The notes below the pieces were generated by a model. It ran no database searches and was not told the DNA's origin. It was given only the letters and a program-made list of their open reading frames with translations. Shown in pieces: positions 63,316-64,000 of a DNA stretch of 64,000 nucleotides (the first letter of the stretch is position 1; every line of letters starts with the position of its first letter). The DNA is taken from contig NZ_HE978601.1 of assembly GCF_000285835.1 (NCBI RefSeq), positions 317,827 through 381,826 on the forward strand. The letters are read 5' to 3'. This stretch comes from Brevibacterium senegalense. Lineage in GTDB: Bacteria > Actinomycetota > Actinomycetes > Actinomycetales > Brevibacteriaceae. A program made the position numbers and the translations under genes.

Positions 63316-63321
63316 CTGCGT

Positions 63322-63394
63322 GGGCCTATAGCTCAGTTGGTAGAGCAGCGGACTTTTAATCCGCGGGTCGTGGGTTCGATCCCCACTGGGCCCA
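63322..63394 (+). tRNA. tRNA-Lys (anticodon TTT)
   Basis: A full 73-base cloverleaf: acceptor GGGCCTA/TGGGCCC, D-arm AGCTCAGTTGG, anticodon stem GCGGA/TCCGC with loop CTTTTAA, T-arm GGGTTCGATCCCC and discriminator A73. CCA is not encoded (ACCC follows). A serine recombinase frame runs antisense into it, which marks this tRNA as a probable integration site. Confidence 0.97.
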
Positions 63395-64000
63395 CCCGAC
63401 GCACAAGGCTCGAACCCTTGCCAACAGATTCGTTGGTGGTGGTTCGGGCCTTGTCTGCATTCTCGGCCCAGGTGAGGGCGTTGGCGTTGATCTCGGGGTC
63501 GAGGAGCATCTCGAAGGGTCGGTTGTTCTCGGCGCGTAGTTCGTCGTCTTCGTCGATGTAGACCTTGGTGAAGAACGCCTGGTTGCATAGGCGTCGGTTG
63601 GCGTCGTCGCACCGGTTGTAGATGTCAGCGCAGTTGGTCAGCAGGTCCAGGGCGTCGTCGAGGTGGGCTCGGGCGTCGGCGTATTCGCCGTGGTGGGCGT
63701 CGATGCGCCGGTTGACTTGGTCGAGTTCGCCCAGGATGCGATCTTGTTCGCGTTTGAGCAGGGCAAGCGGGATCGCGTCGGCGTAGTGGGCTTGCAGGAG
63801 CCGTTCCTGCTCGTGTTGGAGGCGGTCGCGGTTGGCGGTGAGCTGGGCCAGTTCGTCGACTTCGGCGGACATGAGCTGATCGAACTCGTGGTGGAGCATG
63901 CCGGCGAGTGCTTTGCGGCGGGCGGGGGTGATCTGGATGCGCTGGTAGTAGTCCTCGATCAGCTTCTCGACATCGGCGATGAGGATTGCGCTGCGGTCAC
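63333..64000 (-). CDS. serine recombinase, C-terminal part, reading into tRNA-Lys
   Basis: The frame enters from the right edge and shows the C-terminal half of a large serine recombinase: helical coiled-coil DVEKLIEDYYQRIQITPARR, LKREQDRILGELDQVNRRID, then NQAFFTKVYIDEDDELRAEN and RPFEMLLDPEINANALTW. The catalytic N-terminus lies beyond the window. The last 19 or so codons are antisense to tRNA-Lys and the stop (63333-63335) is inside its D-arm. The DNA is visibly less GC-rich than its neighbours, consistent with an acquired element. Confidence 0.85.
   Translation of the reverse strand, partial: DRSAILIADVEKLIEDYYQRIQITPARRKALAGMLHHEFDQLMSAEVDELAQLTANRDRLQHEQERLLQAHYADAIPLALLKREQDRILGELDQVNRRIDAHHGEYADARAHLDDALDLLTNCADIYNRCDDANRRLCNQAFFTKVYIDEDDELRAENNRPFEMLLDPEINANALTWAENADKARTTTNESVGKGSSLVRRVGPVGIEPTTRGLKVRCSTN

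Follow-up and report, generated by a model that had tools for sequence, protein, structure and literature searches.

A large serine recombinase gene of Brevibacterium senegalense that ends inside tRNA-Lys and probably spans the attachment site of its element

The right end of the window, meaning the whole stretch of 64,000 nucleotides of Brevibacterium senegalense analysed here (G000:C2:317827-381826), is best explained as the attL of a conjugative-type element that has integrated here and encodes a large serine recombinase (LSR). According to the full reading of this locus, which is considered highly probable, the element targets the T-arm and the end of tRNA genes, its recombinase gene spans attP, the C-terminus of the recombinase is swapped upon integration, probably as a switch, and the copy in the window has decayed. 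Judged from the coding sequences, every integration would exchange a C-terminal double-HTH domain of the recombinase for tRNA-encoded codons. An ending within a tRNA gene is a family trait. The features concerned, in the window and elsewhere in the same genome, are the following:

63321..63397, plus strand: tRNA-Lys (ttt), intact, the attB half of attL (ARAGORN)
63373..63379, plus strand: T-arm motif GGTTCGA, a candidate for zinc-ribbon (ZD) recognition in the attB half-site (sequence and family-wide motif spacing)
63388..63396, plus strand: GGGCCCACC, expected crossover region by analogy with the sister Val element
63398..63419, plus strand: element-side half-site P' (GACGCACAAGGCTCGAACCCTT; attL junction alignment)
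63410-63416: inverted T-arm-like motif TCGAACC within the P' half-site
63333..64000, minus strand: C-terminal part of the LSR gene
C1:30.8-41.7 kb: sister element at tRNA-Val
C1:370.9-445.0 kb (G000:C1:370881-445100): tandem pair at tRNA-Ala
C6: disrupted element at tRNA-His

The LSR of 590 amino acids, containing Resolvase, Recombinase and zinc-ribbon domains (Pfam), enters the window from the right, its start being located about 1.1 kb beyond the window (C2:382931; L009:2932). As stated in the original prediction, its frame on the minus strand is open through antisense tRNA-Lys and terminates in the D-arm; the stop is a TGA at 63333. The final codons (GTG GGC CCA GTG GGG ATC GAA CCC ... TGA) are antisense tRNA-Lys. 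The tail of borrowed tRNA codons is hence real, although about 21 codons were counted from the 3' end of the tRNA to the stop, instead of the 19 or so given before. The announced drop in base composition beyond the tRNA was found as well, with the G+C content falling from 0.716 (1-kb bin to the left of the tRNA) to 0.63-0.65 in the two bins containing the tRNA and the recombinase. The motif GGTTCGA is located 12 nt before CCAC and 16 nt before the end of the core, and alignment of attL junctions revealed that the P' half-site is conserved among relatives with different tRNA targets. As comparison of the sites revealed, the chromosome supplies the tRNA up to the core and the element the remainder, leaving the tRNA gene intact.

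The ending of the LSR in a tRNA gene is not a matter of chance. Indeed, 68 out of 80 relatives, gathered with the recombinase protein alone as query, also end antisense in the 3' end of a tRNA gene, which supports the earlier claim that the element was integrated at the tRNA. The targets were tRNA-His (30), tRNA-Ala (28, with three anticodons), tRNA-Val (3), tRNA-Arg (3), tRNA-Leu (2), and tRNA-Lys (2). Subfamily A (about 80% identical) used the Ala, Lys, Val, Leu, and Arg targets, and the more distant subfamily B the His target. For the 67 of these 68 relatives with a stop in the available sequence, the stop was found inside the tRNA in 44 cases and beyond it, by up to approximately 350 codons, in 23 cases, so that its exact position is incidental. 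Recombinase C-termini such as GIEPTTRGLKVRCSTN are antisense tRNA and not protein families, which explains a common annotation oddity. In L020, L021 and L050/L135, elements were found at 3' fragments of tRNA genes rather than at whole genes, the fragment in L050/L135 being located just after a tyrosine-integrase-like ORF recognised by eye. It thus seems that the T-arm and the acceptor 3' strand form the minimal target, and the attachment remnant of one element seems to serve as the target of the next one. Members of the same LSR family (80-85% identical) also occurred on contigs of metagenome-assembled genomes (MAGs) labelled Trueperaceae (L064) and Acidobacteria (L052), reflecting either cross-phylum transfer or a binning error.

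The tRNA-Lys locus was read in nine further genomes of the genus. Eight of these lacked a recombinase beside tRNA-Lys, including the closest relative, G037 (97% in poxB); only G035 carried a related element at this site (recombinase, 61%; coupling protein, 82%). Hence, the proposed comparison with empty sites favoured integration, and adjacency of recombinase and tRNA in all relatives, which would have spoken against it, was not found. The best recombinase match outside the genus was 94% identical and came from Dietzia cinnamea, indicating that the element is mobile across genera. The interval to the right of tRNA-Lys in the genomes of the genus is an integration hotspot; between tRNA-Lys and a downstream lactate-dehydrogenase-like gene, both length (about 3 to 11 kb) and content varied (L121-L130).

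The rest of the element had been expected to the right of the window. About 6 kb of it is present right of tRNA-Lys, but this is little, ending truncated at an ISL3 transposase, and chromosomal-type genes start from about 10 kb. The LSR is followed by an unknown ORF of 200 amino acids, an SSB-like ORF, and a TraG/VirD4-type coupling protein, the last identified by Pfam, whose frame is broken by an in-frame stop just ahead of the ATP-binding motif. Regarding membership of the ICEs, the coupling protein is thus present in interrupted form and the conjugation ATPase is represented by a truncated VirB4-like ORF, a C-terminal fragment that was recognised by eye, gave no Pfam match and ends at the ISL3 transposase at about L009:7.2 kb. 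The second copy of the tRNA-Lys 3' end that had been anticipated as attR was not found in the 40 kb right of the window, about 3.3 kb of which consists of N, and the copy of the window has no recognisable attR there. Similarly, a profile search of contig C2 (with the same 3.3 kb of N in this 40-kb stretch) retrieved no attR-side (P-arm) HTH gene, and no IS inverted repeats were found at the right end of the remnant, a region that is partly N. Given the broken coupling-protein gene, the ISL3 truncation and the missing attR, the copy of the window is a decayed remnant that retains attL only, the attR with its P arm and HTH domain having been lost. The N stretches are located at L009:8233-9870 and in L010 near 5.2-6.5 kb; the former is flanked by both ends of an ISL3 transposase frame, which exceeds its expected length by about 1.5 kb and thereby suggests a second insertion.

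The attachment sites could be read from the sister elements, as attL, attR and an empty attB at the tRNA gene were retrieved for two of them, the Val element and the Ala tandem, the empty sites coming from relatives and the copies themselves being partly IS-disrupted:

Val attB (G037): ..CTCTGGGCCCACC / CATGCGGAG; short form ..GGGCCCACC / CATGCGG
Val own attL: ..GGGCCCACC / AGAAGATCG; short form ..GGGCCCACC / AGAAGAT
Val own attR: ..CTACGGAGGCCCACC / CATGCGGAG; short form ..GGAGGCCCACC / CATGCGG
Ala attB (G055; an Ala attB was also read in G054): ..TTAGCTCCAC / AGACGGTCCTGGG
Ala own attL: ..TTAGCTCCAC / GTAAAGTTGAACG
Ala own attR: ..CGTAGGTCCAC / GATCGTCCTGGG, with a matching terminator-like hairpin after it

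The segment common to attL, attR and attB of the Val element is GGCCCACC, and the crossover falls within the final 5-8 bases of the tRNA gene (..CCAC). As the shared block measures 5-8 bp and the apparent symmetry of attP is odd by one base, the crossover is given as this block rather than as one central dinucleotide. Among the unique half-sites (34 each of attB and attP), GGTTCGA gave a single strong match in attP, located 21 nt from the end of the core compared with 16 nt in attB. A zinc-ribbon motif 5 bp farther out in attP than in attB is a structure-based rule for LSRs (Rutherford et al., PMC3783163). The shift found here equals this displacement, which makes the T-loop the most likely zinc-ribbon site. 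Free circular copies were not found in plasmid, phage or viral (IMG/VR) collections; plasmid and phage records contained none at a level of at least 60% identity, and one viral contig represented an integrated copy.

The extension of the recombinase gene beyond the core was revealed by the attR side. In 67 aligned junctions, a conserved attR-side peptide begins at the core in the frame of the recombinase (V-D-L-R-R-E-F-E-N-P in subfamily A and G-C-L-S-S-T-F-G-N-S in subfamily B), the other side being host DNA. The first 52 codons contained no stop in this frame in any of the 67 junctions, compared with stops in 49-65 out of 67 in each of the five alternative frames. The median dN/dS of the linker, computed for codons 13-48 only and hence outside the half-site, was 0.33 for subfamily A and 0.30 for subfamily B. 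When the recombinase directly abuts a P arm, 11 out of 14 junctions form a single ORF (p = 7e-4), the three others being out of frame. Likewise, virtual joining of attL and attR of three sister elements yielded an uninterrupted LSR-linker-HTH-HTH frame in all three, so that both the virtual attP sites and the 11 natural in-frame junctions contain one ORF across the crossover of the circular form. In loci without a tRNA gene (L045, L047, and L083), the recombinase frame runs on into the HTH-coding region. A profile of this region matched (E <= 1e-15) in 43 of the 45 genomes carrying the LSR, compared with 9 out of 97 genomes class-wide with a slightly different profile (Fisher, 6e-25).

Such data have to be weighed against an alternative, namely that the LSR ends naturally near the core, that the tRNA codons, or any others that come next, are meaningless, and that the HTH ORF is an unrelated neighbour. 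The variable tails described above, 44 stopping in the tRNA and 23 running on without conservation, are in line with this plain read-through. It is nevertheless very unlikely, since, in two subfamilies, the P arm encodes a conserved peptide that starts right at the core, in the recombinase frame only, stop-free and under purifying selection, and most natural junctions form one ORF. An origin of the in-frame ORFs and tandem junctions in assembly artefacts is hardly conceivable; although some junctions stem from draft assemblies or MAG contigs, the virtual attP built from separate attL and attR sites of the same element gives the same frame, and the majority of the 67 P arms represent ordinary attR ends, with host terminator-like hairpins next to many of them.

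Alternatively, the attR-side HTH gene may encode a regulator or directionality factor of its own, with a start at the core GTG or inside the gene, its shared frame being a by-product. The presence of GTG at the core in all 33 subfamily A P arms and of ATG at codon index 49 in 29 of them is in favour of this possibility, which is regarded as unlikely all the same. Indeed, the core of subfamily B lacks a start codon (GGG TGC or GGG TCC), whereas conserved coding reaches the core there too, and a start at codon index 49 does not account for the roughly 48 conserved codons ahead of it. A separate HTH protein may be made in addition to the fusion; in subfamily A, this could start from the GTG at the core or, often, from the ATG at codon 50.

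Concerning the domain itself, the fused relatives also contain the Resolvase, Recombinase and zinc-ribbon domains (Pfam), and the part following these LSR domains showed weak similarity to the Pfam HTH families HTH_23, HTH_38, and Sigma70_r4, and a PDB profile search matched 2lvs across the whole double-HTH stretch (2e-6). An AlphaFold model of the L047 fusion, predicted once and of low confidence (mean pLDDT 60, pTM 0.29), displayed a complete LSR with long coiled-coil helices, followed by a disordered linker that includes the core and by two three-helix units (residues 609-645 and 657-693, pLDDT about 68-85). With the core in a disordered linker between the complete LSR and the HTH units, the swap would leave the catalytic part intact.

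Taken together, a mechanism can be proposed in which the LSR recognises tRNA genes by their universal T-arm and CAC(C) end, recombination taking place in the final tRNA bases. On the circle, the LSR frame would continue over the core into the linker and the two HTH units encoded at the attR end. After integration, attL would hold a complete LSR whose tail is random and tRNA-encoded, and attR an HTH fragment, start-less or internally started; the full gene would be rebuilt upon excision. Targeting of tRNA 3' ends, the crossover region, the 5-bp motif shift, the coding continuity across attP and the purifying selection on the linker are read directly from the compared sequences, and the protein products are putative. 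Most likely, the arrangement is a directionality switch of the kind found in phage Mx8. The circle would make the full-length protein, LSR-HTH, as integration enzyme, its additional domain being needed for integration or for blocking excision, and the integrated element would make the truncated LSR only, a form unable to reintegrate or favouring excision, until excision resets the gene. It is possible, albeit doubtful, that the C-terminal swap is itself the directionality control, the DNA arrangement recording the permitted reaction and making a separate directionality factor superfluous or less necessary.

Like the integrases of SSV-type archaeal viruses, in which integration splits the integrase itself, Mx8 Int belongs to the tyrosine recombinases. 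In the case of Myxococcus phage Mx8, attP lies within int, and integration provides the gene with a new 3' end, which changes but does not abolish integrase activity; this has been reviewed as a molecular switch (PMC6070905). It is the nearest precedent, sharing an attP inside the integrase coding sequence. The present family differs by its LSR, with serine instead of tyrosine recombinase domains (Pfam), by the conserved double-HTH beyond attP, and by its many different tRNA targets. The SSV-type integrase, which also extends across attP, is named alongside Mx8 in Islander (PMC4383910); in contrast to that system, the LSR at attL is still complete here. The tRNA islands of Islander with a tyrosine integrase share integration at the tRNA 3' end with restoration of the tRNA, whereas the present enzyme is a serine recombinase and its attL, attR and attB have only about 5-8 bp in common. 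With the Listeria LI/A118-type enzymes, the layout of Resolvase, recombinase, zinc-ribbon and coiled-coil and the 5-bp difference in position of the zinc-ribbon motifs between attB and attP are shared (PMC3783163), but those have other targets and no C-terminal double-HTH that is split off by integration.

Serine integrases are not known to target tRNA genes according to Islander (PMC4383910). In the passages of Ghinet et al. that deal with them, serine recombinases acting at tRNA genes are described as rare, encompassing the Mycobacterium AICEs (tRNA-Leu) and the filamentous phage phiRSM1 (3' end of tRNA-Ser); they resemble the present family in integrating at a tRNA gene, but have, by that description, one tRNA target each and no integrase gene spanning attP (PMC3218068). 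The open-access literature searched contained no LSR that combines an attP inside its own gene with a domain swap. Provisionally, and within that literature, the combination of a serine enzyme, multiple tRNA targets and a domain swap is considered new. Serine integrases are widely used genome-engineering tools, described as not or rarely using tRNA genes (PMC4383910, PMC3218068), and an LSR family recognising the T-arm common to tRNA genes may offer landing sites in many bacteria. Moreover, an integrase gene that is cut and remade whenever its element integrates and excises would exemplify, in nature and in testable form, how the DNA itself can carry directionality.

Finally, tandem arrays of LSR elements at one tRNA occurred at G000:C1:370881-445100 and G035:C1:647000-658300. 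The junction between two elements in such an array recreates an attP-like site, with the LSR-HTH ORF in frame in G000 and out of frame in G035. The tandem junctions that restore the full-length gene in the chromosome (11 cases) may be relevant to the behaviour of these arrays.
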